Source: a virus. From it: a stretch of DNA of 23,699 nucleotides. Of the stretch, positions 8,318-23,699 are shown piece after piece. The notes below the pieces were generated by a model that ran no database searches, was not told the origin of the DNA, and was given only the letters and a program-made list of their open reading frames with translations. The DNA is taken from the IMG/VR virus record IMGVR_UViG_3300031143_000034, positions 1-23,699 of that record; one strand, given 5' to 3'. The number at the start of each line of letters is the position of its first letter. Positions within the stretch are counted from its first letter, which is position 1. Both the position numbers and the translations under genes were made by a program.

Positions 8318-8331
8318 TACCATCTGTGTAA

Positions 8332-9082: not shown

Positions 9083-9083
9083 G

Positions 9084-10087: not shown

Positions 10088-10374
10088 GATTCAATTCTTT
10101 TAATTGATGTTAAGTAATCCTTATCACTTACTATTTGTTCTTGAACTCTCTTTATCCCATGAATAATTGACGTGTGGCTAATCTTGTAACCCTCTTCAGC
10201 CATATACTCTTGTATCGTAACCAATCTCATCTGCCTATTTGAGCACACGAAGTATAGTAGGTTTCTAGCGTCAACAACATCTCTTTTCTTATTCTTAACA
10301 AACAAGTCTTGCTTAGTGAGTCTAAACATAGAAAGAATCTCACTAGTGTATCTATTAAAATATTCTCTTTTCAT
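10075..10374 (-). CDS. Small DnaA domain IV-like DNA-binding protein
   Basis: 99 residues from the ATG at 10374; a TTG 18 bases upstream is less likely. The core (RDVVDARNLLYFVCSNRQMRL...YKISHTSIIHGIKRVQEQI) follows the layout of the DnaA C-terminal domain: a helix with DAR, a helix-turn-helix, then a His-containing recognition helix with Thr/Ser and a trailing Arg. No ATPase domain is present. Such stand-alone proteins may bind DnaA-box-like sites in the phage origin or mark host origin sites. It overlaps the DUF1599-like gene by 20 bases. Confidence 0.7.
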   Translation of the reverse strand: MKREYFNRYTSEILSMFRLTKQDLFVKNKKRDVVDARNLLYFVCSNRQMRLVTIQEYMAEEGYKISHTSIIHGIKRVQEQIVSDKDYLTSIKRIESCIS

Positions 10375-10696
10375 CTTGTTCTTCTTTTGCAATCATTAAT
10401 AGTATAAGGTATCCACATAAATCAAATATGGTATCTTCTGTCCCCTCTGTTATTCCGGTATTCTTAATCCTAGCTAGCTTATCGTCTATCCTAGCGCACA
10501 GAGAGTCAGAGGCTTGACCCTTATTGAAGATGTTAAGAGGTTCAAGTGCTGAGTTGCCATAAGCCTTGTTCTTGCTTAGTAACATATCCCTAACCTCGTT
10601 AGCTTTCTCTGTAATCTTATCGCTCTTGTGGTCAGGTGCTTGTTGTAGCTTCTGAATCTGAATCTTAGTTAGATTCTCTTTTTGTATAAAGTCCAT
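10355..10696 (-). CDS. DUF1599/Nmad1-like nucleotide-associated protein
   Basis: 113 residues from the ATG at 10696; a TTG further upstream lies inside the promoter. The pattern RDMLLSKNKAYGNSALEPLNIF, then SLCARIDDKLARIKN and DTIFDLCGYLILLM matches DUF1599, also called nucleotide modification associated domain 1. The family is all-helical, related in pattern to MazG-type folds, and often lies near phage nucleotide-metabolism genes. No base-modification enzyme is visible in the window, so a simple role in (d)NTP handling is as likely. It has its own promoter box at 10712-10719. Confidence 0.78.
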   Translation of the reverse strand: MDFIQKENLTKIQIQKLQQAPDHKSDKITEKANEVRDMLLSKNKAYGNSALEPLNIFNKGQASDSLCARIDDKLARIKNTGITEGTEDTIFDLCGYLILLMIAKEEQDEKRIF

Positions 10697-10711
10697 AGTA
10701 TATTGTTTGTA

Positions 10712-10719
10712 CAAATATA
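10712..10719 (-). promoter_or_regulatory. TAnnTTTG promoter box upstream of the DUF1599-like gene
   Basis: TATATTTG on the minus strand lies 15 bases before the ATG at 10696, which would give a very short leader of roughly 9 bases. No clear TTG -33 box is present. Its position in the only sizeable gap of this operon supports it. Confidence 0.55.
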
Positions 10720-10773
10720 GGCTAATTATAAGTCTTAGACTAATTAATTTAGTAAAGATTACTTAATGATTAC

Positions 10774-10789
10774 TTAACCTATGGGTTAA
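10774..10789. promoter_or_regulatory. Palindrome TTAACC-TATG-GGTTAA, possible operator
   Basis: A 6-bp inverted repeat with a 4-base spacer lies in the AT-rich gap about 55 bases upstream of the DUF1599 promoter box on the minus strand. It could be a repressor or activator site. It is the only clear palindrome in the gap. Confidence 0.35.
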
Positions 10790-10862
10790 AATTGATTAGT
10801 ATATTGCGTTATGAATAAATTCACAAAACTAGTATACGCTTTATTGATGGTTGTTGTCTACG

Positions 10863-10952
10863 TTATGGCTCTCGTCTGTTAACGGAGCTATCATACATTA
10901 GAAATAGAACAACGGCTATAGTTACGCCTACGATAAATGATGTCTGACTCAT
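10863..10952 (-). CDS. 29-residue putative membrane peptide
   Basis: The ATG follows the stop of the 216-residue gene by one base. A hydrophobic stretch (SFIVGVTIAVVLFLMY, residues 5-20) predicts one transmembrane helix, followed by a short polar tail DSSVNRREP. The position and coupling fit the pattern of other micro-ORFs in this operon. The function is unknown; single-helix phage peptides can act at the host membrane. Confidence 0.55.
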   Translation of the reverse strand: MSQTSFIVGVTIAVVLFLMYDSSVNRREP

Positions 10953-10953
10953 G

Positions 10954-11604
10954 CTATAATTTGTTTAGTGATGTGATTAAATCAGCTAGCTTTCTTAGGC
11001 TATCTATAGGGTGATTACCTTCTGTAAAGATGTGTAATGCATCCTCATCTCCTGTAGAGTTTGATAGCAACTCAAAGCCATGCTTATTATATGCATAGTA
11101 TATGAATCCCGGCTCACCACTCATAGCTTCTTGGTAACACTCTTCAAAACCTAATTCTAATAAAGCTGATGCCGTTATAGTGTCGCTATCTGTTTCGTGC
11201 TCCGTGTCTTGCTTACTTGCTTCAGCTACAGCATCCATTAATCTATTGTAGCTTTCTTCTATAGCTTCACTACGCTCACCCATAAGTACGTCTATACGAT
11301 TCTCTGCTGATGATAGCCTATCCTCTACGTGTTCTATTAGACTAATTAATATATTGGTAGTATCCTCTAAGGGTTCGTCTTCTGTGCTAGTCTCGTTGCT
11401 GTGAAATAAGTCATACTTACTATCTACTAGGTAATGAAACTTACCTTCTGCTGTAAAGGATGTTGGGTGGTCTCCTTCTGCGTCAAACATGTAAGGATAG
11501 TTACCTAATCCGTTTCCATTTGAGAAGGTGACAATACGTCCATCGTGTTGAGTAAACTTGTCTCCGTACTTTGCTGTTTCTAGATTAATCTGTTCTGCTT
11601 TCAT
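10954..11604 (-). CDS. Hypothetical three-part protein, 216 residues
   Basis: The N-terminal part (residues 1-65; GDKFTQHDGRIVTFSNG...HPTSFTAEGKF) looks like a small beta-rich domain. The centre (about 80-135) is acidic and predicted coiled coil. The C-terminal part (about 147-216; LLELGFEECYQEAM...GFIYYAYNKHGFELLSN) looks like a second small alpha/beta domain. I have no firm family assignment. Small beta domains with a Gly-Lys-Phe loop recur in uncharacterised phage early proteins. A coiled-coil scaffold linking two modules is the simplest reading. Confidence 0.7.
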   Translation of the reverse strand: MKAEQINLETAKYGDKFTQHDGRIVTFSNGNGLGNYPYMFDAEGDHPTSFTAEGKFHYLVDSKYDLFHSNETSTEDEPLEDTTNILISLIEHVEDRLSSAENRIDVLMGERSEAIEESYNRLMDAVAEASKQDTEHETDSDTITASALLELGFEECYQEAMSGEPGFIYYAYNKHGFELLSNSTGDEDALHIFTEGNHPIDSLRKLADLITSLNKL

Positions 11605-11623
11605 TCTTGGTTTAATTTAATGG

Positions 11624-11839
11624 TTAGTTCTTATTTAATAGGTTATGTATCTCTAATTCAGCCCAATCGAAACACTCATGTGGTGTCTTGAATTGTTTAG
11701 AGGATTCTGTTATCCAATTACCACTCTTCTTACCTCTCTTGTATACTCCGCATATCCATCCTGAACCTGCATTAGCTAGAGGACTTACTTGAATCCAATA
11801 CCCTAACTCTAGATAATGGTCTATATCTCTTTCGTCCAT
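11624..11839 (-). CDS. Hypothetical protein, 71 residues
   Basis: A small soluble protein (MDERDIDHYLELGYWIQVS...) rich in Trp, Tyr and Gly, suggesting a compact beta-containing fold. Its ATG sits one base after the TAA of the 54-residue gene, at the end of one copy of the repeated junction motif. I recognise no family. Confidence 0.7.
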   Translation of the reverse strand: MDERDIDHYLELGYWIQVSPLANAGSGWICGVYKRGKKSGNWITESSKQFKTPHECFDWAELEIHNLLNKN

Positions 11840-11840
11840 C

Positions 11841-12005
11841 TTAGTCTTGTTTTAGTTCGTTAGGGATTTCCATCCATCTAATTATTTCTCCTTTTAATGT
11901 AGTTTCCCACATATCTAACCATTCTGTACTTGCGTAATAGCACAACTTGATGTAGCCGTTACTCATTCTACACACATAACTTCCTTCTTTTTTTGGTTGT
12001 TCCAT
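11841..12005 (-). CDS. Hypothetical protein, 54 residues
   Basis: Starts with ATG right after one copy of the junction motif and ends inside the next, whose bases encode its last residues LKQD and the TAA stop. The peptide is basic at the N-terminus (MEQPKKEGSYVCRMSNGYIK) and Trp/Tyr-rich in the centre (YYASTEWLDMWETTLKG). No membrane segment is evident. The primase also ends in QLKQD because its gene ends in the same motif. The function is unknown. Confidence 0.65.
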   Translation of the reverse strand: MEQPKKEGSYVCRMSNGYIKLCYYASTEWLDMWETTLKGEIIRWMEIPNELKQD

Positions 12006-12017
12006 CTTAGTCTTGTT

Positions 12018-12110
12018 TTAGTTGTTTAAAAATAGTATCGCCAAATAAAACACCCAAGTTGCCAATATTGAAGCTACGCACCATTCAAACAAGTTATTTT
12101 TCTTCTTCAT
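12018..12110 (-). CDS. 30-residue putative membrane peptide
   Basis: Starts with ATG after a junction-motif copy (12112-12128) and stops with the TAA formed by the next copy. The N-terminus is basic and polar (MKKKNNLFEW), then VASILATWVFYLAILFL forms one clear transmembrane helix. The basic-then-hydrophobic layout predicts an inner-membrane peptide with the N-terminus in the cytoplasm. The function is unknown. Confidence 0.6.
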   Translation of the reverse strand: MKKKNNLFEWCVASILATWVFYLAILFLNN

Positions 12111-12136
12111 CTTAGTCTTGTTTTAGTTAGTCCATA

Positions 12137-12164
12137 GTTGGGAAGGAATCCCGCCCTCCCCAAC
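12137..12164 (-). promoter_or_regulatory. Strong hairpin downstream of the tRNA-like RNA
   Basis: An 11-bp stem with two G-U pairs and a 6-base loop (minus strand GTTGGGGAGGG with TCCTTCCCAAC). No T-run follows, so it may be an RNA processing or stability element at the 3' side of the structured RNA rather than a terminator. Confidence 0.5.
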
Positions 12165-12228
12165 GCTGACTTTCAAATCCATTTCAAGATTTCTTTAGTA
12201 ACACTCACGCAGTCACCTCTCGTAATAG

Positions 12229-12371
12229 TCAAGGATGATGGAATCGAACCACCTTACTACTAACTGCATCTATGTATAGCCTTGTTCAGAACTTCGTGGG
12301 CATCAATAGCAGAGCCTTTTATGTAGTACCTCCTCGATAGAGGCTCACAGCTCCAACTGTGACAATCCTTG
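12229..12371 (-). ncRNA. tRNA-like RNA with a very long extra arm
   Basis: CAAGGAT (12371-12365) pairs perfectly with ATCCTTG (12236-12230) as a 7-bp acceptor stem, with A as discriminator base. T8 and G9 follow, then a D-arm TCAC-AGTTGG...-GTGA with A14, G15, G18 and G19 in place. The T-arm GGTGG-TTCGATT-CCATC has the TTCGA signature. Between them are a short CCTC/GAGG hairpin where the anticodon arm should be, and about 72 bases closed by TACTAC/GTAGTA where the variable arm should be. At about 143 bases it is too long for a normal tRNA. The anticodon-like loop has A, not U, before the putative anticodon, so I give no amino acid. CCA is not encoded. Confidence 0.6.
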
Positions 12372-12451
12372 GGGTTGCCTAGCTCCGTTCACTCAAGCAG
12401 TTTAGTAGCTAGGACTTTAGTTTGCAGCGTTCAAGTGGCTTGCTCTCTTTA
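12372..12451 (-). other. Non-coding stretch between the 58-residue gene and the tRNA-like RNA
   Basis: Eighty bases without a convincing frame. They contain a 7-bp inverted repeat CCTAGCT/AGCTAGG with a 22-base loop and two imperfect copies of a CTTGA...AACG pattern. The stretch may be the 5' leader of the structured RNA. Confidence 0.4.
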
Positions 12452-12628
12452 CTATTGTCCGTACTGTCTACCATTTAAGGTAGCACCTTGTTGACGGAAG
12501 TTTCTGGGGGATACTTTTCTTGGGTGATATGTCACACCTCGATGTTCGACGCCCATTATTAATTGATATGCATTCCTTGTTACAGCCTTACCTGTAGTGT
12601 CTTTAGTAATTGGTTTAATCCTTGCCAT
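12452..12628 (-). CDS. Small basic protein, 58 residues
   Basis: Its ATG overlaps the TAA of the RusA-like gene by one base (TAATG), a tight coupling. The protein is very basic (many Arg and Lys, few acids), beginning MARIKPITKDTTGKAV and ending in a Gln/Gly/Asn-rich tail. There is no membrane segment. High positive charge and the resolvase partner suggest nucleic-acid binding, but no family is recognised. Confidence 0.65.
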   Translation of the reverse strand: MARIKPITKDTTGKAVTRNAYQLIMGVEHRGVTYHPRKVSPRNFRQQGATLNGRQYGQ

Positions 12629-13026
12629 TATATGTGCTTTCCTTTAATCTTTTGGTTATCAGGTACGATGTCTATCACCACGCCTGCAGTTTCTTTGTCT
12701 ACTTCGTAGCCTGTGAAGTATGGAACGATGTTAGTTATATCATCATCTTCTATCCAGAAATTCTTAACCATAAGGTCTTGAACAGTTTGAGCTGGGTTTA
12801 TGTAGTCAAACTTTCTTCTTGTGCTTCTTATAAAATAGAACGATACATGGTATGGTGGCGATAGGTCCTTAGTTAATTCCTTGAACTTAGCCTTACCTTC
12901 TCTGTATTCTGTTCTTGTATTCTTTATGTACTCTCTTGTTGTCTTACCGTTAATCAGATACTTGCCTGTCCATTGCTTGCTGTTCTTGCTAGACGAAACA
13001 TTACCGTGTATATATATTCCTTTCAT
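12628..13026 (-). CDS. RusA-like Holliday junction resolvase
   Basis: A 132-residue protein matching the RusA size (about 120). The key stretch is RRKFDYINPAQTVQDLM at 70-86, then WIEDDDIT at 91-98; RusA uses a triad of Asp residues in the pattern D-x-D/N...D...DD, here Asp74, Asn77 or Asp84, and Asp94-96. Position 76 is Ile where RusA usually has Asp, so the arrangement is slightly divergent. RusA cuts four-way junctions symmetrically. The gene follows the SSB/Sak4 recombination genes. Confidence 0.78.
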   Translation of the reverse strand: MKGIYIHGNVSSSKNSKQWTGKYLINGKTTREYIKNTRTEYREGKAKFKELTKDLSPPYHVSFYFIRSTRRKFDYINPAQTVQDLMVKNFWIEDDDITNIVPYFTGYEVDKETAGVVIDIVPDNQKIKGKHI

Positions 13027-13099
13027 ATTTGTGTGTTAAATATTCATTAACAGCAAGCCTCATCAAGAGACCTGCCGTTAAGAATACTATAGTTAGATA

Positions 13100-13651
13100 C
13101 TAAAATGGAGACCCAGTTGTCTGAGCTTCCCCTCCACTCAAGGCTGTAACATGTGCTTCATGCGCTGCTCTATATGCTGCTTGATCAGCTGGAGTTAAAG
13201 CTTTATTATAGCTATCCTTCCATGTTATAGTGCGATCCATAGTTCCTGAGAACTTATAGTCTACTGAGGTACGAACGGTTGGTTCACCCGTATCCTTGTC
13301 GTTAGTCCAGTACTCTCTAGAGGCTAGACATACATTAACTTTATTACCTAAAGTTTCTTTACACGCTGTAGGGAATACATCAAAGTTCTTAGCCCCTGCG
13401 TTCTGTAAGAATCCCTTGAAGATTTCTGTACGTACTCTTGCGGCAGCTTCTGACGTTGACTCATCGATACCTTGGAATCTTAACTGTTGAATTCCTTTCT
13501 CATTGGAAACCTTAAACTCCACGTAAGGCTTACCTGTATATCCATCAATGGAATTTGAACTCTTCACCTCGTCCACTGTTACTGTGTGAACACCTGCTTG
13601 TAGGTAGTTGGTGGTTTCTTTTACTTCTGCTTTCTTTAAATCTGGAAACAT
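13100..13651 (-). CDS. Putative single-stranded DNA-binding protein beside the Sak4-like gene
   Basis: A 183-residue protein with a beta-rich body (HTVTVDEVKSSNSIDGYTGKPYVEFKVSN, then VNVCLASREYW and TSVDYKFSGTMDRTITW) that fits an OB-fold-like pattern, a flexible Ala/Gly-rich tail, and a C-terminal SPF that recalls the Pro-Phe tip of SSB but lacks the acids. It follows the Sak4-like ATPase gene, and Sak4 annealing proteins are known to act with SSBs. I see no classical SSB signature, so the call rests on context, the tail and the general fold pattern. Confidence 0.5.
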   Translation of the reverse strand: MFPDLKKAEVKETTNYLQAGVHTVTVDEVKSSNSIDGYTGKPYVEFKVSNEKGIQQLRFQGIDESTSEAAARVRTEIFKGFLQNAGAKNFDVFPTACKETLGNKVNVCLASREYWTNDKDTGEPTVRTSVDYKFSGTMDRTITWKDSYNKALTPADQAAYRAAHEAHVTALSGGEAQTTGSPF

Positions 13652-13673
13652 AATCGTTTTCTTTTAGTGTTAA

Positions 13674-14309
13674 TTAATTGTAATACTCTTCGCATTTCTC
13701 AATGACATACTGTAGGTCATTATCTATATGTAGCTCATCGAACATCTCCATTGGGCTCTTTGCAGAGTCCTTACCTAGAGACTGTGTTCTAAATCTGTGC
13801 TTCATTCCGTCTTCGGCTAGATGATTGTCAGTGAATAGACATAGAACGAATTCCTTCTCTACTCTCTTCTTCCATCTGTTACCATCGACAGCAACATAAC
13901 GCTCTTCTACACCCTCTCCGCTGTCGTATGCAGCGTCTATAGCTATATATACAACGTACTTGTCAGTGTTCTTGCTTATGTTTAATATCCTATCGATTTC
14001 CTTGTTGTAGAATGACCACACATCAAATCCTTTGAATCTTATATCAGCCTCTCTGTATATCATTTCGATAAGAGATGTGAATGATTCAATAACGATAACA
14101 TCAATCTTGTCTGAGGCTAATGCTTGCGTTAAGGTCTTGTTGAATGTAGCCAGATCGGCAACAGGTACATTCTGGAAAGCCTTAGCTCCCTTGAATGGTA
14201 GTTGTTTTCTCTCTGTGTTTATGACCGCCGTTCTTGTGGGGTCAAGGTTCCGTAGTGATGTGCTCTTTCCTGAGCCACTCTTCCCTACGACAATGATGTT
14301 TGGTTTCAT
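13674..14309 (-). CDS. Sak4-like RecA-fold ATPase (AAA_24 type)
   Basis: 211 residues from the ATG at 14309, which overlaps the HU-like gene's stop as ATGA; a longer frame would run into that gene. Walker A is GKSGSGKST at 9-17, right at the N-terminus, and Walker B is VIVIESF at roughly 72-78. Length, N-terminal P-loop and TAVINTERK (beta-strand 2 region) fit the RecA-core Sak4 proteins, single-domain relatives of RAD51 that promote annealing. The downstream gene is a probable SSB and the next a RusA-like resolvase, which supports a recombination role. Confidence 0.75.
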   Translation of the reverse strand: MKPNIIVVGKSGSGKSTSLRNLDPTRTAVINTERKQLPFKGAKAFQNVPVADLATFNKTLTQALASDKIDVIVIESFTSLIEMIYREADIRFKGFDVWSFYNKEIDRILNISKNTDKYVVYIAIDAAYDSGEGVEERYVAVDGNRWKKRVEKEFVLCLFTDNHLAEDGMKHRFRTQSLGKDSAKSPMEMFDELHIDNDLQYVIEKCEEYYN

Positions 14310-14542
14310 TTGTCTTTGGTTTTTAACTTTAAATAATCTTCCATGTTTAGCTTGTCGTCTTTCCTCCAAGTCTCTCTCGATGAACAAACAAACTTCATAA
14401 AGCCTCTAAGCATAACCTTCTCGTCCTTAGCGAATCTCTCCTCTAAGCTCTCGAAGGTTTTACTTATAGCTAGCTTGATTGTTTTCTTTGAATAAGGTAG
14501 CTGTTCTGCTATCCTATTTACTATGTCGTCTGTAGTTTTCAT
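14306..14542 (-). CDS. HU/IHF-like DNA-binding protein
   Basis: 78 residues from the ATG at 14542. DDIVNRIAEQLPYSKKTIKLAISKTFESLEERFAKDEKVMLRGFMKF follows the HU layout: two N-terminal helices, then the GFG-like turn, here RGFMKF. The DNA-binding arm is short and charged (SRETWRKDDKLNM), so it may be a reduced HU. It could bend DNA at the phage origin or promoters. It has a promoter directly upstream and overlaps the Sak4-like gene. Confidence 0.72.
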   Translation of the reverse strand: MKTTDDIVNRIAEQLPYSKKTIKLAISKTFESLEERFAKDEKVMLRGFMKFVCSSRETWRKDDKLNMEDYLKLKTKDK

Positions 14543-14547
14543 TACCA

Positions 14548-14578
14548 CAAATATAGTGAATTAACCTGAATTGTGCAA
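14548..14578 (-). promoter_or_regulatory. Full Bacteroidetes promoter before the HU-like gene
   Basis: TTG (14578-14576), 20 bases, then TATATTTG (14555-14548) on the minus strand match the TTG-N(17-23)-TAnnTTTG form. The ATG is only five bases after the -7 box, so the transcript would be leaderless or nearly so. Confidence 0.65.
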
Positions 14579-14590
14579 AGTTTTCAACAG

Positions 14591-15892
14591 CTAAAACTTC
14601 TCTTCTATCTCTACGAACTTGGTTAAGTAACCAATAAACTTCAGCCATTTGCTACCTATACCTATGTTCCTTCCCTTTGCGAATATAATCTCTGCCAGTC
14701 CTTCGGTGTTGTTACCGTTCTGGTCTTCAGTAAATCCGTAATACTCTGGTCTATAGACTAGTATAACTGCGTCTGCAGCTTGCTCTATCTCTCCTGACTC
14801 TCTAAGATTAGAGAGCATAGGTCTAGAAGCTTCATTGCGTTCCACTCCCCTAGATAGTTGCGACAGGGCTAGTATAGTAATATCCAATTCCTTGGCTATG
14901 TTCTTCAAACCCCTAGCTATTTTAGCTATCTCTTGCTCTCTAGATGTTCCCTTAGCAGGACTAGAAACCAACTGTAGATAGTCTACCATAACCAGCTTAA
15001 CTTTCTTAGTTACTACATACTGACGAATACGATTCAGTAAATACCTCAACGAAGTATTAGCACATTCATCTATATACAAATCAGTACGCTCAATAACACC
15101 CGTAGAGGTATGTATCTTAGCCCATTCGTCAGCAGTTAACGTACCCTTTAAGATGTACTTGTTATCAACCTCGGACTCAGCGCTCACAAGCCTAGCCATA
15201 AGCTGATTGACAGACATCTCATAAGAGAATATAACTGTAGGATAATTCATAGCAGATGCGTTATACGCCAATGATAGTGAAAACGATGTCTTACCCATAG
15301 ATGATGCACCACCAATAATAATTAAATCTTGTGGTTGCCACCCACCTGTAAACTTATCTATGTTAGCGAACCCACTAGGGATTCCTGATAAGCCTTCGGT
15401 TGCGGCATTCTTTTCAATCATCTTGATTACATCTCGTAATCTATCTGTCATCTCTACTATGCCTTCCTTAGACTCCGAGGTTATAGCGGTCATGCTAGTC
15501 TCTATCTTAGATACTGTAGAGTCAATCTCCTTACTATCTATATTCATCAAGACTTCTTCACATAATACTTTTATGTTCTTCTTCTTGTATAGGTTTGTAA
15601 GGTATTCGATGAGAGTCTCTATGTTTTGTGTGTATGCATCACCGTGTGATATACATAGACCTAGTTCATAGTCTAGTCCTTTCATTTTAAGGACACCTAA
15701 CTCGGTCATACACTTAAGCATGTCGAACTTATCACCCTTCTGATACTTGTCGTCTATCCACCCGAATATAGCTATCCTGTGCACTGACGAGAACAACTCC
15801 TTCTTTAGTAGTTGGTGTTGGTCGTAGTATGAGTTTGGTTTGTTCATTAGCCACCATAGTAGCGCTCTCTCTATGTCTTCATTATCGCTCAT
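14591..15892 (-). CDS. dnaB: Replicative DNA helicase, DnaB family
   Basis: A 433-residue protein, close to the usual 430-470. The N-terminal helical domain spans about 1-140, and the RecA-fold C-terminal domain starts at GLSGIPSGFANIDKFTGGW (167-185). Walker A is GGASSMGKTS at 194-203, Walker B VMVDYLQLV at 301-309, then LALSQLSRGVE at 341-351 and SNLRESGEIEQAAD at 361-374. It unwinds DNA at the replication fork as a hexamer. Its ATG overlaps the end of the probable helicase loader by 11 bases, a typical loader-helicase pairing. Confidence 0.96.
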   Translation of the reverse strand: MSDNEDIERALLWWLMNKPNSYYDQHQLLKKELFSSVHRIAIFGWIDDKYQKGDKFDMLKCMTELGVLKMKGLDYELGLCISHGDAYTQNIETLIEYLTNLYKKKNIKVLCEEVLMNIDSKEIDSTVSKIETSMTAITSESKEGIVEMTDRLRDVIKMIEKNAATEGLSGIPSGFANIDKFTGGWQPQDLIIIGGASSMGKTSFSLSLAYNASAMNYPTVIFSYEMSVNQLMARLVSAESEVDNKYILKGTLTADEWAKIHTSTGVIERTDLYIDECANTSLRYLLNRIRQYVVTKKVKLVMVDYLQLVSSPAKGTSREQEIAKIARGLKNIAKELDITILALSQLSRGVERNEASRPMLSNLRESGEIEQAADAVILVYRPEYYGFTEDQNGNNTEGLAEIIFAKGRNIGIGSKWLKFIGYLTKFVEIEEKF

Positions 15893-16484
15893 CTCTACCC
15901 TTTATTTCTCGTTTAATAGTTAAGACATTGGGTAGGCTTATCTTCTCTAGTTCATCTGTCCATCTCTCGTTCTTTATCCATCTCTCAGGATTCTGTAGGT
16001 CGGGAACAAACTTACCTAGAGCCGTCATTCTAACACCGTAGTCTATCTGATCTTTAAGAGAGCTTATGATAACTTCATACAGTTCATCGTTAGGTTTAAG
16101 TTTCATCCACTCATATAGAGCCTTCTTCTTACCTATCTTTGTTGGCACTATATGCCAGTATGTATTAAACTTAAGCTCTTGCTTAACTCTATCGGCTGGG
16201 GTTATCTTAGTTTTATTAACACTAAACAACCTTCTAGCCTTGGGCGTAAAGCTAAGGAAATCATATTTCAACAGCAAGTATCCATCAAATTCTAACTCTG
16301 TATAGCACCTTTCTAATTGATCGTGCGTATACCCGTAGTACTCTTTTAGTACCTTGTGCCAGGTCTCGTGGTTGTCTGTATTGACATGCCAGTCTAAGAC
16401 TAGGTATGATAATAAACTCATACCCAAGTCATTAGCCTCGAACTCTCCTAAGAAATCATCGCATACCTTAGTTAGTTTAACCAT
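15882..16484 (-). CDS. Probable replication initiation protein or helicase loader
   Basis: A 200-residue protein. The N-terminal part looks like a winged helix (LLSYLVLDWHVN...HDQLERCYTELEFDGYLLLKYDFLSFTPKARRLF). The C-terminal part has VPDLQNPERWIKNERWTDELE, close to the NPxTWLNxxRWxDE pattern at the end of many phage replication and loader proteins. Direct overlap with dnaB supports a loader. Sequence-specific origin binding by the winged helix is possible but not shown. Confidence 0.68.
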   Translation of the reverse strand: MVKLTKVCDDFLGEFEANDLGMSLLSYLVLDWHVNTDNHETWHKVLKEYYGYTHDQLERCYTELEFDGYLLLKYDFLSFTPKARRLFSVNKTKITPADRVKQELKFNTYWHIVPTKIGKKKALYEWMKLKPNDELYEVIISSLKDQIDYGVRMTALGKFVPDLQNPERWIKNERWTDELEKISLPNVLTIKREIKGRDER

Positions 16485-17365
16485 AGCCCGTCCTTCTTCA
16501 TCTGGCTTACACTTAACTTTAAAGCTGTTGATACTATGTCTGAACCTTTACCGTTAAGGTTAAAGTCAAACCATTCATCGGTGTTAGATTCCTTAACCTT
16601 GTGTGTAAGGTAGTGAGTAACTCCATTAAATAATCCATAGTAACTAGAACCCTTCATCGCCATTTCACCTACGATACTTGCGTTTAGTTTCTCTCTCTTG
16701 TCTTTGGTTTCTTGTAGCACTCTCTTTCCGTCTACTCTTCCTACTAAGTTTAGTATCTCATCTACAAACTCTTGGCTTGGTGATGTCGTACCTAACTTCT
16801 TCATTACTACACTTAATCCTGTAGTATTACGGTGTATCAACTCATCGAGCTTGTTGTGCTCAGTGATACCCTCCATTCTTTTGGTGTGCTTAATTATGTG
16901 CTGGTTGTCTTTGTCAGCCATAAGCAATCCAAACATGTTAGAACAGCTATGTAGCTTAGTTGTAATACCAAACGCTAACCTAGCTGATCCATCGTGAGAT
17001 GATACTGCATATACATATGTATCTGCCATCTCTGAACCGAAGTCTACCTGCTTGTCTATCTTGATGAAGAAGAATACTTTTCTACCTCCTCTAAACATAC
17101 CGCACTTAGACTTACTCAAATCGTACCGTTCATCGCCTATCTTTTCTAATATAACATCTAGTAGGTCGTTGTTCTGTTTGACCACGTATCTATCCGTCAC
17201 GCAACCTAGTGGGGTTCTCGTGTCGTTTCTTAGTGTTGTGTAGAATGGTGTGTCGTCGTATCCTTGTAGGTCTGACGCTTCTGTAAACATTTTCTGCTTA
17301 CTTACGGTAAAGTTAAGCCCTCCTCTTTCGAGAAAGGCTACTTTGTTTATTTCTGTACTATTCAT
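16472..17365 (-). CDS. DUF932 phage/plasmid-like protein
   Basis: A 297-residue protein with the features of the DUF932 family: an N-terminal GLNFTVSKQKMF-type region, TRTPLGCVTDRYVVKQN, GGRKVFFFIKIDK, then YVYAVSSHDGSARLAFGITTKLHSCSNMFG and HTKRMEG. The family is common on plasmids and phages, roughly 260-370 residues, with no settled biochemical role. It overlaps both neighbours, so it is co-transcribed with the helicase loader and DnaB. Confidence 0.85.
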   Translation of the reverse strand: MNSTEINKVAFLERGGLNFTVSKQKMFTEASDLQGYDDTPFYTTLRNDTRTPLGCVTDRYVVKQNNDLLDVILEKIGDERYDLSKSKCGMFRGGRKVFFFIKIDKQVDFGSEMADTYVYAVSSHDGSARLAFGITTKLHSCSNMFGLLMADKDNQHIIKHTKRMEGITEHNKLDELIHRNTTGLSVVMKKLGTTSPSQEFVDEILNLVGRVDGKRVLQETKDKREKLNASIVGEMAMKGSSYYGLFNGVTHYLTHKVKESNTDEWFDFNLNGKGSDIVSTALKLSVSQMKKDGLWLN

Positions 17366-17510
17366 CTGCGTTATCTTTAACTAGTTGTATTTTATACTCC
17401 TCGTATAATGCTTCTTCTTTAAGCATGTTCTGTTCCATAGCGCTATCGCTATACAGTTCCTCTAACTCTTGGTTAGCTTGCCTAATGGCAAGGTCTTTCA
17501 TGTGTCCCAT
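17358..17510 (-). CDS. Hypothetical protein, 50 residues
   Basis: A very acidic helical peptide (RQANQELEELYSDSAMEQNMLKEE within it), likely coiled coil. The ATG lies five bases after the stop of the preceding gene and the stop overlaps the DUF932 start by 8 bases, so the frame fills an otherwise empty operon gap exactly. No family is recognised. Confidence 0.65.
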   Translation of the reverse strand: MGHMKDLAIRQANQELEELYSDSAMEQNMLKEEALYEEYKIQLVKDNADE

Positions 17511-17515
17511 GATGA

Positions 17516-17752
17516 TTATTTTAATGTTAACTTCTTGGTTACTACTATATCCAACACCTCGTAGTTAGTTGATGAATTTACTATGTAACCTCTATCTCTT
17601 AGAGCGTCCATGATTTGATGACGATAGTTCCATAGGTCTTTGTCCCATCCTCTAGCATCGCATACAGATAGCTTAGCTGTACCGTCGTTTTCTACACGGT
17701 TAGCCATTCCATCTATAAGGTTCTGAATCTCTCCTTCTATTCTACTACTCAT
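17516..17752 (-). CDS. Hypothetical protein, 78 residues
   Basis: A small alpha/beta-looking protein (MSSRIEGEIQNLIDGMANRV..., RHQIMDALRDRGYIVNSST). It overlaps the upstream 68-residue gene by 8 bases. The helix-turn-strand layout (DALRDRGYIV) recalls small winged-helix or ribbon folds, but I cannot assign a family. Confidence 0.65.
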   Translation of the reverse strand: MSSRIEGEIQNLIDGMANRVENDGTAKLSVCDARGWDKDLWNYRHQIMDALRDRGYIVNSSTNYEVLDIVVTKKLTLK

Positions 17753-17951
17753 TAGTTACCTTTTTACGTAGTTTGATGATCGATTGTAGAAGTTCATTAT
17801 CTTCTTCGGCCATGTATTCGCCTTCGTAGTTTATGTAATCTTCTGTTAACTCTTTAGTGAGTCTTTCTATCTCAGCTAAATCTTCCTTAATCTCGTCTAA
17901 GTTCTTGAGCAAAGCTCCTATCCTTAGTTCATTGAATTCTCCTAGGCTCAT
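17745..17951 (-). CDS. Coiled-coil protein, 68 residues
   Basis: Nearly all helical and acidic, with heptad-like Leu/Ile spacing (LLKNLDEIKEDLAEIERLTKEL). The ATG overlaps the stop of the 57-residue gene as ATGA. It is probably a small dimeric partner or anti-host protein; no family is recognised. Confidence 0.68.
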   Translation of the reverse strand: MSLGEFNELRIGALLKNLDEIKEDLAEIERLTKELTEDYINYEGEYMAEEDNELLQSIIKLRKKVTNE

Positions 17952-18121
17952 TTCTTTTCATTTACTTGAATACCAAATTTATCCTTAAACGCTATGTCTA
18001 ATTCTAACTGCTCATCTAATGGTAGCTTATTATGCAACCATTCTATCTCACCTACAGGTGCGTCGCATTCTGTTAGCAACCACTCTGCATAGAGTTGAGA
18101 AAACTTCTTAGGTTCTGCCAT
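17948..18121 (-). CDS. Hypothetical protein, 57 residues
   Basis: A small soluble helical protein (MAEPKKFSQLYAEWLLTECD...). It starts 18 bases after the amidoligase stop and ends in an ATGA overlap with the next gene, so it is embedded in the operon although short. It contains a TAAATTTG that resembles a promoter box, but that is probably coding sequence. No family is recognised. Confidence 0.65.
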   Translation of the reverse strand: MAEPKKFSQLYAEWLLTECDAPVGEIEWLHNKLPLDEQLELDIAFKDKFGIQVNEKK

Positions 18122-18139
18122 GTGTTTTAAATAATGGGG

Positions 18140-19540
18140 CTAAATCGCCCCGTTAAATTTATCCTTCCTACTATTAACATACCTAGATACTTGACCTCCC
18201 AGATTATCTCCGAGAGCTGAATGTAATACCTCGTCTAAGGTTATACCTCCAGGTAAGTTTCTAGCTTCCCAAATTCTTCGCTGGTTATTCTCAACGAAGT
18301 TTACAAATGCCATACATATCAACGTCCAATTACGGATCTTCTCATAGTTCATGGACGCTCCATGATTTCTGAACTCAATAGTGTTATGACCATTAGCTTG
18401 GCTATACCCAACCATATTTAACCATGTATACCTCTTTGAAGGATACCTACCTAATCTGGTTTTCTTGTTGTTATCCGCATCCAATGTGCATGAAGAATAA
18501 ATCAAGTCTGCTAAATGTTCTTTGTAATTCTTGAAAGTCATCTCCTTATGTTTAGTAGGGATAGGCTTACAATACGTACTACGCTTTCTAGATGGTGGCA
18601 TCATTTCAAAGACCTCATCTTGAAGCATTAAGCCTAAGTGAGTAGCCATGATAGTGAACCTTCTATTAAATGTAGCTCCACCTATGTGTACATGTATACC
18701 ACATTGAGAATCAATCTCGCAGTTTTCTTGTACGGTATCACAAACTTTCTTGAGCATGCTTAACCCTGAATCTCCTACAAGAACTCCAGTTACATATTCC
18801 TTACCGCTTATACTACCATCATTTACTGCAGATACATTTAAATCATTACCTTCACTAGTCGGTACATAACCTCCTGATGTCTCTACTTCAACACCGAATG
18901 TATATCTCATACCGTTAGTGTTGGTGAATGTCGTAGACATTGTACCACGATCCCTAGCATACTTAGACATCTTTTGGCCTTCGCTAGCTACAGACGAGTT
19001 ATCGAACGTACTTCCTCCATTACCTTCATCCCCTCCGTTCTCGCAGTTGTCAAAGTTGTGGTTGTTTGAATGTCTATACTCTTCACATCCATCGCAATAG
19101 TATACATCATTGTTGTCTGCTGCGCAGCTATCTATATACGTTTCGTCGTCGTCTGAACAGAATATAAGGTCATCAGAGTCTTCATGTACTTGAATCATAT
19201 CTCCGCTACCGTCTATAACGCTTCTAGAGACTTCTTCAGAATATCTATCTTCATTAAGAATACACCAAAAGGTGTCGTCATAATTCATAAGCTCTCCGTC
19301 GTATATACGTACTACGTCGTATTCCTCTTGAAGTAATTCAAAAGCGTCATCACGCTTAGGGCTGTTGTGTAACTCTTCCGATGAGCGTATGTCATAAACA
19401 CTTAGGTCTACGACAACAGGACTGCTCATGCAAGGTTCGTATAACTCGAACTCGTCGCTTATCTCCTCCTCCTCTTCTATGAGTAATACGTCAACGCTTT
19501 CCTCTTCCTCTAATATTGAGTCGATTGTTTCTCTTGGCAT
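18140..19540 (-). CDS. Amidoligase (Amidoligase_2 family) with acidic, cysteine-containing N-terminal region
   Basis: A 466-residue protein. The C-terminal 260 residues carry the amidoligase (COOH-NH2 ligase) pattern: GVEVE at 216-220 (metal-binding Glu pair), NDGS at 240-243, CGIHVH at 280-285, RYTWLN at 370-375 and TIEFRNHGAS at 387-396. This fold is related to glutamine synthetase and gamma-glutamylcysteine ligase and forms amide bonds using ATP. The first 130 residues are strongly acidic; a Cys cluster (128, 139, 149, 152, 166, including CDGC) may bind zinc. Family members often lie next to glutamine amidotransferases, as here, suggesting modification of a peptide or protein. The target is unknown. 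Confidence 0.85.
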   Translation of the reverse strand: MPRETIDSILEEEESVDVLLIEEEEEISDEFELYEPCMSSPVVVDLSVYDIRSSEELHNSPKRDDAFELLQEEYDVVRIYDGELMNYDDTFWCILNEDRYSEEVSRSVIDGSGDMIQVHEDSDDLIFCSDDDETYIDSCAADNNDVYYCDGCEEYRHSNNHNFDNCENGGDEGNGGSTFDNSSVASEGQKMSKYARDRGTMSTTFTNTNGMRYTFGVEVETSGGYVPTSEGNDLNVSAVNDGSISGKEYVTGVLVGDSGLSMLKKVCDTVQENCEIDSQCGIHVHIGGATFNRRFTIMATHLGLMLQDEVFEMMPPSRKRSTYCKPIPTKHKEMTFKNYKEHLADLIYSSCTLDADNNKKTRLGRYPSKRYTWLNMVGYSQANGHNTIEFRNHGASMNYEKIRNWTLICMAFVNFVENNQRRIWEARNLPGGITLDEVLHSALGDNLGGQVSRYVNSRKDKFNGAI

Positions 19541-19695
19541 AATTTCTTAATGTTTTTAAGCTTACGCTTCACAGACGCTATATCAGCGTTGTTGTTATTA
19601 TTAGAACGAAGAGATAAGCCCTCTAAAGAGCTTATAACTTCATTCGTAAACTGTTCGTCTGATATGAATATCAGTAATTTCTCTAGATTATTCAT
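19510..19695 (-). CDS. Hypothetical protein, 61 residues, between amidotransferase and amidoligase
   Basis: Overlaps the amidotransferase stop by 8 bases and the amidoligase start by 31 bases, so it is translationally linked to both. It is helical with a run of five Asn (NNNNN at about 32-36) and a Lys-rich end (VKRKLKNIKKL). It could be a small substrate or adaptor of the modification enzymes, an idea based on position only. Confidence 0.6.
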   Translation of the reverse strand: MNNLEKLLIFISDEQFTNEVISSLEGLSLRSNNNNNADIASVKRKLKNIKKLCQEKQSTQY

Positions 19696-20674
19696 AGATT
19701 TTTTCCTCTACATTGTTAACACCATAAGACTTATCATATAGCTCATCAAGCAACTTCTCTAAAGCAGTCTCTTGTGTCTCGTCTATGATTCCGTTGTACA
19801 TTAAATCTTGCAGTGCTTGACACTGAATCTCTTCTGTGCTCTGTCCTATGTAGTACTCTTCCTTCTCTGTTTTAGAGACATACGATGCATTGTATTTAGC
19901 GGTTGCATAAGGGTCTTCGTTCTCATTAACGTCCCACTTATTCCATATCTCCTGCTGTTCCTTAGTCACTGTATATTCGTTAGTCTTGTAGTCTGTCCAG
20001 TTCTTAACCTTAGTACCAACCTCTTGAACATACGTGGTAGGAATATCCTTAGTGTACTCAAGCTTACCATCGTTATAGATGAATAGCTTTTCCTTTTCCA
20101 CTTCCTCAATCTTACCACCATCAGGACATATATCTTGCAACCCTTCCTTCAATGAAGAGAAATAGATACCACCCTCAACCTCAAGCATATACAACGGATT
20201 GTTACGTCTGTATATATATAGCTTGTTGTCTGACTCAGTCCATACAGCGTTGATAGTACCACCATGCTCACCTAATGTTAAGTGATCATTGGTGGCTACC
20301 ATCGCTTCGTAAATAGCTTTACTATCTACGTCGGGGGAATCGAAACTATACTTCTTAGCAGTGTCTTTGTAATTGGATAACACACCATTATGACACCCAA
20401 TGTAGGAGCCTATAATATAAGGGTGTGTGTTCTCAGCAGTCTTTGTACCGTGAGTTGCATACCGTGTATGCCCAATCGCTAGATTTACCTCGCTTACATC
20501 AATGAATCTATTTAAAAATCCTGATGTTTCTAATGTCTTATATAATCTAGAACCTTCAGGTCCTTCTGTATATAATCCAGTTGAATGTCCACCTCTACTA
20601 TCGTTATCGTTTAGTAGGTGCATTATCTTTGCAATGTTTACACTCTTGCCAGAGTATGCAGTTATACCACACAT
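19688..20674 (-). CDS. Class II glutamine amidotransferase
   Basis: A 328-residue protein. The start gives MCGI, placing the nucleophile at Cys2 after Met removal. Other glutaminase motifs are SRGGHSTG at 26-33, GHTRYATHG at 68-76, NTHPY at 82-86, CHNGVLSNY at 94-102 and DVDSKAIYEA at 115-124. It releases ammonia from glutamine. There is no PRPP, sugar-isomerase or synthetase domain; instead about 110 residues at the C-terminus (from about 220) are acidic and unrecognised. With the amidoligase two genes downstream it probably supplies ammonia, or itself edits gamma-glutamyl groups, in a peptide-modification pathway. Confidence 0.9.
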   Translation of the reverse strand: MCGITAYSGKSVNIAKIMHLLNDNDSRGGHSTGLYTEGPEGSRLYKTLETSGFLNRFIDVSEVNLAIGHTRYATHGTKTAENTHPYIIGSYIGCHNGVLSNYKDTAKKYSFDSPDVDSKAIYEAMVATNDHLTLGEHGGTINAVWTESDNKLYIYRRNNPLYMLEVEGGIYFSSLKEGLQDICPDGGKIEEVEKEKLFIYNDGKLEYTKDIPTTYVQEVGTKVKNWTDYKTNEYTVTKEQQEIWNKWDVNENEDPYATAKYNASYVSKTEKEEYYIGQSTEEIQCQALQDLMYNGIIDETQETALEKLLDELYDKSYGVNNVEEKIYE

Positions 20675-20686
20675 ATCGTTTCTTAT

Positions 20687-20899
20687 TTAAGTTAGTTGTC
20701 TGTTGCTGTAGAATATTCTACTAGCTGGCTGTGCTCTTCCCTCTCTTGGGGTGAGCATAATCTTGTCGTCTTCTTCTGTTACCGTGTATCGCTTTAAACT
20801 CAAGAAGAGGTACAGTTTCCCGTCCTCTATCTTGGTTGTAAGCGTCTTAGGCTTCAGTCTCAAAGACTTCAACAAGACCTTGAATCTTTCTTTGTTCAT
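20687..20899 (-). CDS. Hypothetical protein, 70 residues
   Basis: Starts at the ATG at 20899 (an upstream ATG pair at 20920-20923 would add eight residues), within the end of the preceding gene, and stops 12 bases before the amidotransferase. It is basic, with a probable beta-hairpin (LKPKTLTTKIEDGKLYLFLSL) and an Arg-rich end. No family is recognised; its place suggests an accessory of the modification module. Confidence 0.6.
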   Translation of the reverse strand: MNKERFKVLLKSLRLKPKTLTTKIEDGKLYLFLSLKRYTVTEEDDKIMLTPREGRAQPASRIFYSNRQLT

Positions 20900-21836
20900 T
20901 ACAAATGAATTGAATGTCATCATAACTTAGCAATGGATACTTCTCTTTAAAAGAGTTCTCATACACTGCTTTCTCGTATTCCTGTCTCAAACCTTTAATG
21001 TTATAAACAGCTCCCATAAGGATGTCTAAATCATTACACTTAATAGTAAGTGGTGTGAATTGAAAACAATCTAAATCTAAATGGTCTATTAAATCACGCT
21101 CTAACAACAACCGTAGTATATGTGTAGCGTCAGCTCCATTTTTAGTATTGATAGCCTTAAGCTGATACCATGCATCATCATCTCGTGGTAACACAAGTCT
21201 CTTAGGTATCTCGTAAGTCTCTCCGTTATCTCCATCTACAAAGTATACAACATCATCACTAGACTCCTTGGGAGCTTGCATGATAGTGATTTGTATTACT
21301 CCTCTGTGTATAGAGAGTTCGTTCATACTAATACATGACTTTCTACTAGGTGTAACTACCTTAACTACAGTTGTGTCGTTAGGATTTATACTAGTAAACC
21401 AATTCAACTTCCAACTCCATCCGAAGGATGATGCTGATGACTCTATTGAATCAATATATTGAACCATGAACATACGAAGGTTTGATTCATCTATCTTCCG
21501 ACCACAGTATTGAACCATGTCCTCGGTAGCAATACAGCCATACTCTTCCCAGAATTCTGTATTGTTAAACTCTTGGATAAACCATTCCTTAGACTTAATG
21601 TATATATCTCTTGCTAGTACAATATCCTTAGTCTTAATCCACCAATCACAACTAGCTAACTTAAAGTTACCTCTATCGCTAGCTATAGCATTGTCGAATA
21701 GCGTTACATCTTCATCTGATAATTCATATCCGAATAGGTAGTCCATGTCTGCCTCATGCCAGGACATAACAGAACGGTAGTCCGATCCATGCTCGGATCG
21801 GGCTTCCTCTTCTGTTTTTATTCTAAACCTTAACAT
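20847..21836 (-). CDS. Hypothetical protein, 329 residues, first enzyme-sized gene of the module
   Basis: A soluble, Trp-, Asp- and Glu-rich protein with no transmembrane segment. Notable stretches are FGYELSDEDVTLFDN (helical), SSASSFGWSWKLNWFT, VVKVVTPSRKSCISMNELSIHRGVIQITI (beta-rich) and FVDGDNGETYEIPKRLVLPRDDD. I do not recognise the fold. Related phage clusters pair an amidoligase and amidotransferase with an ATP-grasp enzyme, but I cannot find the ATP-grasp motifs here. It overlaps the 156-residue gene by 7 bases at its start and the 70-residue gene by 53 bases at its end. Confidence 0.75.
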   Translation of the reverse strand: MLRFRIKTEEEARSEHGSDYRSVMSWHEADMDYLFGYELSDEDVTLFDNAIASDRGNFKLASCDWWIKTKDIVLARDIYIKSKEWFIQEFNNTEFWEEYGCIATEDMVQYCGRKIDESNLRMFMVQYIDSIESSASSFGWSWKLNWFTSINPNDTTVVKVVTPSRKSCISMNELSIHRGVIQITIMQAPKESSDDVVYFVDGDNGETYEIPKRLVLPRDDDAWYQLKAINTKNGADATHILRLLLERDLIDHLDLDCFQFTPLTIKCNDLDILMGAVYNIKGLRQEYEKAVYENSFKEKYPLLSYDDIQFICNEQRKIQGLVEVFETEA

Positions 21837-22300
21837 TCTTTAAACCTTACAGATATTCTCTGAGTCTTACCGTTGATGGTAATATCCATTGTATCTAAGT
21901 CTATAGTGAATCCTTCAGGTGGAGTCTCAAGCTCTTCAATACCTTTCTCTTCAACTACAGTATCTTCTACTATAGTCTTAGCTTCCACTACTTCATGGTT
22001 ACGAGGTCTCATATCGAACATCTTATCAACAGCTGTAGCATCTACTTGAATAGGTGATGCAACCTTGTTGTTTATAATATCCTGTAAAGGATCTTTACTG
22101 AAATGAAACGTTGCTTGCTTTGCGGCTTGCTTACGCTTAATTCTAGTACCAGCTGGTGTTAATTTGCTAATCTTTTGCAAGATTGCCTTGTCAGTTCTAC
22201 CTAACGCTTCGCTTAACTTACTTGTTGGTAAGTGCATGTTCTGTAACAGGAATTTCTTCTCTGTCTGTGACCATTGCTTGTGGTGTGCTTCTCCTTTCAT
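21830..22300 (-). CDS. SANT/Myb-like DNA-binding protein, 156 residues
   Basis: Residues about 8-50 (QWSQTEKKFLLQNMHLPTSKLSEALGRTDKAILQKISKL) form a helix-turn-helix of the SANT/Myb-like or GcrA-like kind, with a leading Trp and a Gly-Arg-Thr before the recognition helix. A basic linker (RIKRKQAAKQ) follows. The remaining half is acidic and beta-like (GFTIDLDTMDITINGKTQRISVRF). It is an early gene of the operon and could regulate transcription of the module or bind the repeats upstream. Confidence 0.68.
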   Translation of the reverse strand: MKGEAHHKQWSQTEKKFLLQNMHLPTSKLSEALGRTDKAILQKISKLTPAGTRIKRKQAAKQATFHFSKDPLQDIINNKVASPIQVDATAVDKMFDMRPRNHEVVEAKTIVEDTVVEEKGIEELETPPEGFTIDLDTMDITINGKTQRISVRFKEC

Positions 22301-22301
22301 C

Positions 22302-22481
22302 TTACTTTAGTTTAAGTAATTTCTTTTCGAGCTTAGCGCGTTGCTTTGCTCCACATGTCTCCATCACTTGACGGATACCTGCTTCTGTGCTTACAAGATT
22401 ATCGTAATAGTCTTGTCTTTCTTGTGCTTCTTCTCTAAGCACTTCTTTGCGCTCTTTGCGAGCATTTACTAATCCAGCCAT
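22302..22481 (-). CDS. Basic helical protein, 59 residues
   Basis: The first gene after the structured RNA region. The ATG follows an A-rich leader, and the TAA lies one base before the next ATG. It is helical and rich in Lys, Arg and Glu (ARKERKEVLREEAQERQDYY), with one Cys near position 43. It is probably a nucleic-acid-binding or coiled-coil protein; no family is recognised. The leader CTAAAGTAAGATG at its end resembles the junction motif used elsewhere. Confidence 0.68.
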   Translation of the reverse strand: MAGLVNARKERKEVLREEAQERQDYYDNLVSTEAGIRQVMETCGAKQRAKLEKKLLKLK

Positions 22482-22504
22482 AGCTTTCTATTTAGTTTGG
22501 TTAG

Positions 22505-22840
22505 TGAAACAGAGAGGAATCGAACCTCTCTATAGACCATCTGTTTCGTGTGCTATCCTACTTCTTTTGACGGCGATAGCTTTCCGACATGCTTGGGGTT
22601 TTAGGTGCAGAGAACCTAAGCCTATCCATGAAATAGGGCTTGCAATATTAAAAGTTATGTTCTTCGTCAAGAACTCCATCTACAGCTTCTTTTGCTAACT
22701 GCAGTCTGCTACTAACCTTTACAGGTGAGGGCAATCATAGATGTTTTAACTTTAAGGGATAGGCTGAGAGGTTTGGTTTTGCAGGCTCGCACTCTGTAGC
22801 TCTCATTATTTGGGTTTAACAGCATCACCCACGCCTAATA
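22505..22840 (-). ncRNA. Structured RNA with tRNA-like 3' end, possibly tmRNA-like
   Basis: About 335 bases without a convincing ORF on the minus strand, ending in T-arm AGAGG-TTCGATT-CCTCT (22529-22513) and acceptor strand CTGTTTC plus A. GAAACAG, complementary to that strand, lies only 11 bases before the T-arm. Upstream helices include TGAGAG/CTCTCA, a 9-bp long-range pair AGCCTATCC/GGATAGGCT, GTTCTT-GACG-AAGAAC and TTAGGT/ACCTAA. An AAGCATGT followed by GAAAGCT near the 3' side resembles tmRNA as I recall it. A frame AKEAVDGVLDEEHNF-stop ends just past the GACG hairpin, where a tmRNA tag would lie, but lacks the usual ALAA ending. The 5' end is unknown; the conserved tmRNA 5' end is not found. 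Confidence 0.5.
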
Positions 22841-22871
22841 TTATTATACTCGTAAATATTTCACTGATAAT

Positions 22872-22945
22872 TGCTAGTATGATTTAATATAGCCTTCCCA
22901 GGTGCTAATATGATTAAATACTTAAATAATACTAACGAATATGAT
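22872..22945 (+). repeat. Three TATGAT repeats spaced exactly 31 bp
   Basis: TGCTAGTATGATTTAATA (22872-22889) and TGCTAATATGATTAAATA (22903-22920) differ at two bases, and a third weaker copy centres on 22940-22945 (CGAATATGATAATCG). The shared TATGAT starts at 22878, 22909 and 22940. Thirty-one base pairs is about three helical turns, so proteins bound here would lie on the same DNA face. The array lies 20 bases before a right-pointing promoter. Confidence 0.65.
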
Positions 22946-22964
22946 AATCGCACCTATTCTTGGC

Positions 22965-22995
22965 TTGACATTGTCATATTTAAACTGTACCTTTG
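22965..22995 (+). promoter_or_regulatory. Right-pointing Bacteroidetes promoter with overlapping inverted repeat
   Basis: TTG (22965-22967), 20 bases, then TACCTTTG (22988-22995) gives the same geometry as the promoter before the HU-like gene. TGACA-T-TGTCA (22966-22976) is an inverted repeat across the -33 region. No convincing + strand gene follows, so it may drive a small RNA. A 33-codon frame (22910-23011) crosses the site but is weak. Confidence 0.5.
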
Positions 22996-23293
22996 GTGGG
23001 ATAGTGGATAACTACATAATAACATAGTCAATCACTTAAATATCCTAGACGAAACAAGGAAACACAAAGGGAAGTAAGTAAAGGGAAGAGCGATAGCGAC
23101 TACAACGAGAGGCAAAACATACCTGAACATAGACTCTCACTCATTCTATACATACTCTACCTATTACGGAACCTTTACAATCTATACTCTATAAAGGCTC
23201 TAGGCCTTGTTTATATGACTATTATCAGTCTTATAGAGCTTGTGGAACACTTCTACACACACATACACACACATAATAACTTATCACGAACAA

Positions 23294-23340
23294 TACTCTG
23301 CATAGATACCATGCATAGATGTCGTGACTACTCTGCATAT
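23294..23340 (+). repeat. Short repeats TACTCTGCATA and TGCATAGAT
   Basis: TACTCTGCATA occurs at 23294-23304 and 23329-23339 (35 bp apart). TGCATAGAT occurs at 23299-23307 and 23312-23320. They are flanked by CACGA (23286-23290) and TCGTG (23322-23326) in inverted orientation. They may be binding sites of an initiator or regulator. Confidence 0.5.
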
Positions 23341-23358
23341 GATAGTGATCAAGTAAAG

Positions 23359-23377
23359 GTGGGCGACCGTAGCCACC
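23359..23377 (-). terminator. Possible weak terminator after the right-edge gene
   Basis: On the minus strand GGTGG...CCACC forms a 5-bp stem (extendable with a bulge), followed by TTTACTT, 15 bases after the stop at 23392. The T-run is short, so this is tentative. Confidence 0.35.
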
Positions 23378-23391
23378 CAACCTCACTATAC

Positions 23392-23699
23392 TTACGACCA
23401 GAGTCCCCTAGCAACCTTACGGTTGGTAGTCTCCTCTTGTCTGTTACTAGGTTGCGTTTTGTTATACGCAGGACTAGTAACGAAAGCCTTACCCTTAGAG
23501 ATGTAAGTGCTCACATTAACTGACTTACCTGTAAGGTCTTCAGCGAATTCATCAGGGTTTAGTATGTACTCGAATCCTGTCTCTTGTTGAGAGAAGATTG
23601 TGTACAGCTTTTGCAAGCTACCCTTTAGTACAGGTTTCTCTGTACTATAAAACGCATCTAAAGTTTCGTAACGTTTGACTTGCGTCTTTGTTGTTACGT
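23392..23699 (-). CDS. Unknown protein, C-terminal part, cut by the window edge
   Basis: The minus-strand frame stays open to the right edge, so about 101 C-terminal residues are visible and the start lies outside; an internal TTG at 23616 is not needed. Visible parts include RYETLDAFYSTEKPVLKG and a central DEFAEDLTGKSVNVSTYISKGKAF, with a polar, Gln/Asn/Arg-rich tail. No motif allows a family call. It is separated from the rest by the control region and may belong to a different transcription unit. Confidence 0.55.
   Translation of the reverse strand, partial: VTTKTQVKRYETLDAFYSTEKPVLKGSLQKLYTIFSQQETGFEYILNPDEFAEDLTGKSVNVSTYISKGKAFVTSPAYNKTQPSNRQEETTNRKVARGLWS

Follow-up and report, generated by a model that had tools for sequence, protein, structure and literature searches.

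What is made or broken by a phage gene block that encodes an amidoligase and a class II glutamine amidotransferase (GAT) with no ATP-grasp ligase visible beside them, and on which target does it act? The question is raised by positions 18140–21836 of the IMG/VR virus record IMGVR_UViG_3300031143_000034, a 23.7-kb record (23,699 nucleotides) whose whole length is called the window here. All open reading frames (ORFs) of the block lie on the minus strand, and they are transcribed in the order 329-residue orphan, 78-residue protein, GAT, 61-residue protein and Amidoligase_2 (Table 1). The block is probably a reduced phage amidoligase cassette with a core of amidoligase, GAT and gamma-glutamylamine cyclotransferase (GGACT) plus conserved small accessory proteins. 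It is highly probable that the module makes and breaks amide bonds enzymatically, and the cell wall is put forward more tentatively as its target.

This assignment is supported by the family assignments, the fold matches, the conserved catalytic residues, the synteny and gene overlaps, the presence of GGACT in all ten relatives that reach its place, the gene fusions of a second phage clade and the full cassettes of other phages. In an uninterrupted relative, amidoligase, GAT and GGACT lie strand-wise in one early/replication block, accompanied by two or three small proteins that are conserved.

Conserved enzymes and small proteins of the block

The string of small protein, GAT, 60-residue protein and amidoligase recurs in at least 15 IMG/VR contigs. 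This recurrence, ratios of nonsynonymous to synonymous substitution rates (dN/dS) well below 1 and the codon usage of the 329-residue ORF, which supports both of its halves as coding, indicate that the block did not arise by chance. The dN/dS values are 0.07–0.26 for GAT, 0.12–0.26 for the 61-residue protein and 0.30–0.36 for the amidoligase, those of the small genes being approximate because the reading frames overlap.

The GxExE, DGS, GxE, HxH and TxExR residues of the amidoligase are invariant among 14 aligned relatives (E218, E220, E248, H283, H285, E389 and R391), and the ExE and ExxR residues of the ligase type are present. The full motif set claimed in an earlier note on this DNA is thus borne out by these residues and by the Pfam match. 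The predicted fold resembles those of YbdK, glutamine synthetase (GS), PafA, Dop and yeast glutamate–cysteine ligase (GCL), which fill ranks 1–29 of a PDB fold search with a best E of 3e-4 and modest TM-scores of 0.2–0.4; the model gives the amidoligase a fold of the GS/glutamate–cysteine synthetase (GCS) superfamily. No sequence relative was found in the PDB, and no bacterial or archaeal relative with close patterns was found among 84,980 genomes. C152 and C166 are present in 13 of 13 window-like amidoligases and C128 and C149 in 9 of 13, and this Cys-rich stretch possibly binds zinc.

In GAT, C2, R71, N96–G97 and D117 are conserved in the aligned relatives, except that row L023 is gapped at C2, and a profile including the window GAT matches the N-terminal domains of GlmS and PurF. 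The stand-alone glutaminase with Cys2 described earlier therefore holds, as does the overlap of the 61-residue ORF with both neighbours, by 8 nt with GAT and by 31 nt with the amidoligase. Homologues of the 61-residue protein were found as 12 distinct sequences, every one of them encoded between GAT and amidoligase, and are 55–72 residues long in relatives. Profile homologues of the 78-residue protein (73–90 residues; E 8.7e-17 for the window member) are encoded at the corresponding position in relatives.

The GATs of the window clade are short (321–345 residues) and have no C-terminal CxxC pairs. Zinc-ribbon-like CxxC tails are seen on several other phage GATs, at the C-termini of L022, L023 and L024 and of the L118 fusion, whereas the window clade has, in place of such GAT tails, the Cys-rich N-terminal stretch of its amidoligases.

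Table 1 Positions of the features discussed (window coordinates unless a locus is named)
Feature	Position	Strand	Basis or remark
Amidoligase_2 (GS/GCS-like carboxylate-amine ligase), 466 residues	18140..19540	-	PF12224 E 4e-20
Possible zinc site, Cys-rich stretch in amidoligase N-terminal region	19043..19171	-	C128, C149, C152, C166
61-residue accessory protein between GAT and amidoligase	19510..19695	-	homologues, dN/dS
Class II GAT (N-terminal nucleophile, Cys2), 328 residues	19688..20674	-	PF13522 E 2.3e-10
Small protein upstream of GAT, 78 residues (70 from second Met)	20687..20923	-	profile homologues
329-residue orphan	20847..21836	-	no family match
DUF932 protein	16472-17365
Two-phage junction	11830..12128	.	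left part = contig G020, right part = contig G001
21-bp leader AACTAAAACAAGACTAAGATG	11837, 12003, 12108	-	G001 counterparts 52873, 53039, 53144
GAT-II::GGACT fusions with CxxC-rich C-terminal tail	L118:4602-5720, L099:5044-6096, L116:2162-3316, others

The cyclotransferase partner and the missing ligases

A 66-kb contig, G001 (IMGVR_UViG_3300031141_000005), matches positions 12108–23699 of the window with 99.99% identity. It encodes capsid, muzzle and ring proteins of the crAss-like type; a host among the Bacteroidota is therefore likely. At 66 kb, this contig (L014–L017) is shorter than the crAss-like comparators, which measure about 93–102 kb. The gene order of the clade is ~153-residue protein, 73–90-residue protein, GAT, 55–72-residue protein, amidoligase, DUF932, 200-residue protein and DnaB, followed by AAA protein, RusA, RecB-like exonuclease and GGACT, with almost constant intergenic gaps and overlaps. 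Co-occurrence of the genes, which the earlier note had wished to see checked, is thus kept for GAT, the 61-residue gene and the amidoligase but not for the 329-residue protein as a whole. GGACT (PF06094) lies about 6.5–8 kb downstream in each of the ten contigs that extend far enough, namely G001 (about 7.9 kb) and nine further records, and one more record ends inside the gene; its catalytic Glu is conserved. The window itself, unlike G001, has no GGACT because its sequence crosses into a different phage at the junction. Throughout the clade, the gene after the module encodes the DUF932 protein, most of whose distant matches come from Arthrobacter, Gordonia and Microbacterium phages.

The COOH-NH2 ligase PF14395 was detected in 4 of 8 comparators and in none of the 18 window-like records, of which the 66-kb contig is one. 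A phage ATP-grasp profile, built from the same comparators that it detects, was negative in all 18 (the 66-kb record and 17 related ones) and positive in 7 of the 8. Pfam PF13535 was too weak for phage ATP-grasps and missed the annotated positive phi14:2. An iterative profile seeded with phi14:2 picked up the second ligase in three further cases that Pfam misses (RIO-1, FBPa8 and the L038 contig of 97 kb) and in no window-like locus. The earlier statement that the usual ATP-grasp partner is not visible accordingly extends from the window to the 66-kb record of the same phage.

Fusion of GAT with GGACT in a second clade

An 800-residue primase marks the phages to which the left half of the window belongs, and these form a clade of ~60-kb phages unrelated to the first. 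A GAT-like protein is encoded in 17 of 67 loci of this clade and is fused to GGACT in 16 of the 17 (profile probabilities of 97.6% and 99.7% for the GAT and GGACT domains; Pfam GGACT 2e-23). A divergent amidoligase (94.4% profile probability) lies upstream of GAT in 15 of these 17 loci, the sequence of the other two beginning too near the fusion gene to reveal one, and the amidoligase is never present without GAT. The amidoligase and fusion genes are also adjacent in the public record MW202828. That amidoligase, GAT and GGACT work jointly is indicated by the fusion and by their shared presence or absence, evidence that does not depend on how the genes are arranged in the window clade; the fusion also argues that GAT and GGACT share one substrate. 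No ATP-grasp was found in the 17 records, with the same limit of sensitivity as for the window clade. In public records the fusions are labelled solely as gamma-glutamyl cyclotransferase.

Comparison with known systems

A phage "peptidoglycan modification cassette" has already been described in podoviruses of the RIO-1/LUZ24/phiEco32 type (PMC5498523, PMC3890496, PMC11945000), with proposals of Iyer et al. 2009 as cited in PMC5498523 and PMC11945000. According to the published proposal, the cassette alters side chains of the peptidoglycan, either to keep out superinfecting phages or in preparation for lysis. Full five-enzyme cassettes are present in phi14:2, Lbo-JY46, QDWS535, RIO-1 and UFV-P2, and the classic cassettes of the first four have ATP-grasp and the PF14395 ligase. 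The window clade shares with them Amidoligase_2, class II GAT, GGCT/GGACT and an early block among replication genes. However, PF14395 and ATP-grasp were not detected in it, its GAT is short, its GGACT lies 6.5–8 kb away, and it adds small proteins of about 60, 75 and 153 residues. The crAss-like phages phi14:2 and cr108_1 resemble the window phage, which is also crAss-like, in that GAT is followed, directly in their case, by a long, N-terminally extended amidoligase. Unlike the window phage, both have ATP-grasp and the PF14395 ligase and lack the 61-residue gene; phi14:2 also has GGCT, which was not found in cr108_1.

An amidoligase–GATase pair has been reported in the OM43 phages MEP401 and MEP402, with no mention of an ATP-grasp partner (PMC10580990), but these phages belong to the Zobellviridae lineage. 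In ergothioneine synthesis, the GCS-like ligase EgtA installs a gamma-glutamyl group that the GAT-type enzyme EgtC removes (PMC4621440). This pair of ligase and GAT-type enzyme is an analogy only. The kind of system is therefore known, and its composition here, which lacks two of the cassette ligases and has three short conserved genes in addition, is a variant not described in the literature searched.

Proposed reactions and alternative explanations

In a reduced cassette, the amidoligase would activate a carboxylate with ATP and join it to an amine or ammonia. GAT would supply ammonia from glutamine or, like EgtC, hydrolyse gamma-glutamyl amides, and GGACT would take gamma-glutamyl groups off amines as 5-oxoproline. 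The 61-residue protein may be a stoichiometric adaptor of the GAT–amidoligase pair. The most likely target would be the peptide side chains of host peptidoglycan or its precursors, and remodelling of peptidoglycan during infection might exclude other phages or tune lysis. A Peptidase_M15_3 protein of an endolysin-type family encoded by G001 counts in favour of this assignment. Several points weigh against it. The literature searched yielded no biochemical work on any phage member; the proposal of a cell-wall target was made for the complete cassette, and a version short of two of the three ligases may have another substrate; in the window clade, 6.5–8 kb separate GGACT from the amidoligase; and a very diverged ATP-grasp could escape a profile built from its own comparators.

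A less probable reading is that amidoligase, class II GAT and GGACT are a self-sufficient minimal system of two independent phage origins, which puts gamma-glutamyl or amide groups on a new target and takes them off, with the 61-residue protein as an obligate subunit. It would exist in two forms, one with separate genes and the 61-residue linker in small crAss-like phages and the other with the GAT::GGACT fusion in the second clade. Rather unlikely is modification of a host or virion protein or peptide, in which the amidoligase would gamma-glutamylate or amidate its target in the style of PafA and Dop on Pup and GGACT would reverse the reaction. PafA and Dop are indeed among the fold matches, and the human GGACT-type enzyme has gamma-glutamyl-lysine as its substrate. 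Phage R2K ATP-grasp ligases have also been proposed to modify host proteins (PMC7824862). However, no carrier peptide or Pup-like protein was seen, and the small proteins have no C-terminal Glu/Gln or Gly tail conserved across relatives.

A role in small-molecule or nitrogen metabolism, in which gamma-glutamyl amines such as polyamine or thiol conjugates are made and recycled or glutamine nitrogen is redirected, is similarly doubtful: it has a precedent in EgtA and EgtC, a GCS-like ligase with a glutamate-releasing GAT (PMC4621440), but the ZRK32 evidence is indirect and no other genes of such a pathway lie nearby. Modification of phage DNA or nucleotides is very improbable. The module does lie beside DnaB, Sak4-like, RusA and RecB-like genes, but the cassette is also found among replication genes in unrelated podoviruses, with a cell-wall role proposed there, and no nucleobase hydroxymethylase or hypermodification enzyme appeared among the 25 of 37 Pfam families listed, most G001 proteins having been scanned. 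Least probable of all is that the 329-residue protein, which adjoins the GAT region, is a diverged ATP-grasp that completes a classic cassette, because the phage ATP-grasp profile gives it a probability of 0.1%, the ~153-residue protein that relatives have there does not resemble ATP-grasp either (0.4%), and the low-confidence model of the 329-residue protein has no fold match.

The amidoligase cassette is widespread in phages, and no experimental test of it was found in the literature searched. If the module is a reduced cassette, comparison with its relatives suggests which three enzymes make up the minimal set, and a single ligase with a GAT and a cyclotransferase is far simpler to reconstitute than a five-enzyme set. 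Together with the fusion, which points to a shared substrate, this makes the long-standing cell-wall proposal directly testable.

The 329-residue orphan

The 329-residue protein had been thought to occupy the place of the ATP-grasp partner. It has no profile similarity to ATP-grasp, PF14395, GAT or amidoligase; family searches gave no match, and no relative was found outside this phage. Nor did structure prediction, suggested earlier as a check, lend it a function: the model is of low confidence (predicted local distance difference test score, pLDDT, 46.6) and a viral fold search with it returned nothing. Its C-terminal ~158 residues (about 171–329) align weakly, colinearly and end to end with the ~153-residue protein that relatives carry at its place, and its first ~170 residues are unique. 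Scores equal to or better than that of this alignment were reached by 37 of 4753 shuffles (~0.008) and by 6 of ~390 unrelated proteins, and homology was not accepted as proven on these scores. The overlap with the downstream small gene is of similar size (77 nt for the 329-residue gene and 35–74 nt for the ~153-residue genes) and in the same relative frame, which favours homology of the C-terminal half; such homology is likely but unproven.

The two-phage junction

Positions 1–12060 of the window are 99.94% identical to contig G020 (IMGVR_UViG_3300031848_000025), and positions 11830–23699 are 99–99.99% identical to G001, save ~100 bp missing at the join. The window may be a true recombinant or a chimeric contig. 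At exactly this junction, consecutive small ORFs are each preceded by the 21-bp leader, a repeat that could promote gene exchange or mis-assembly.
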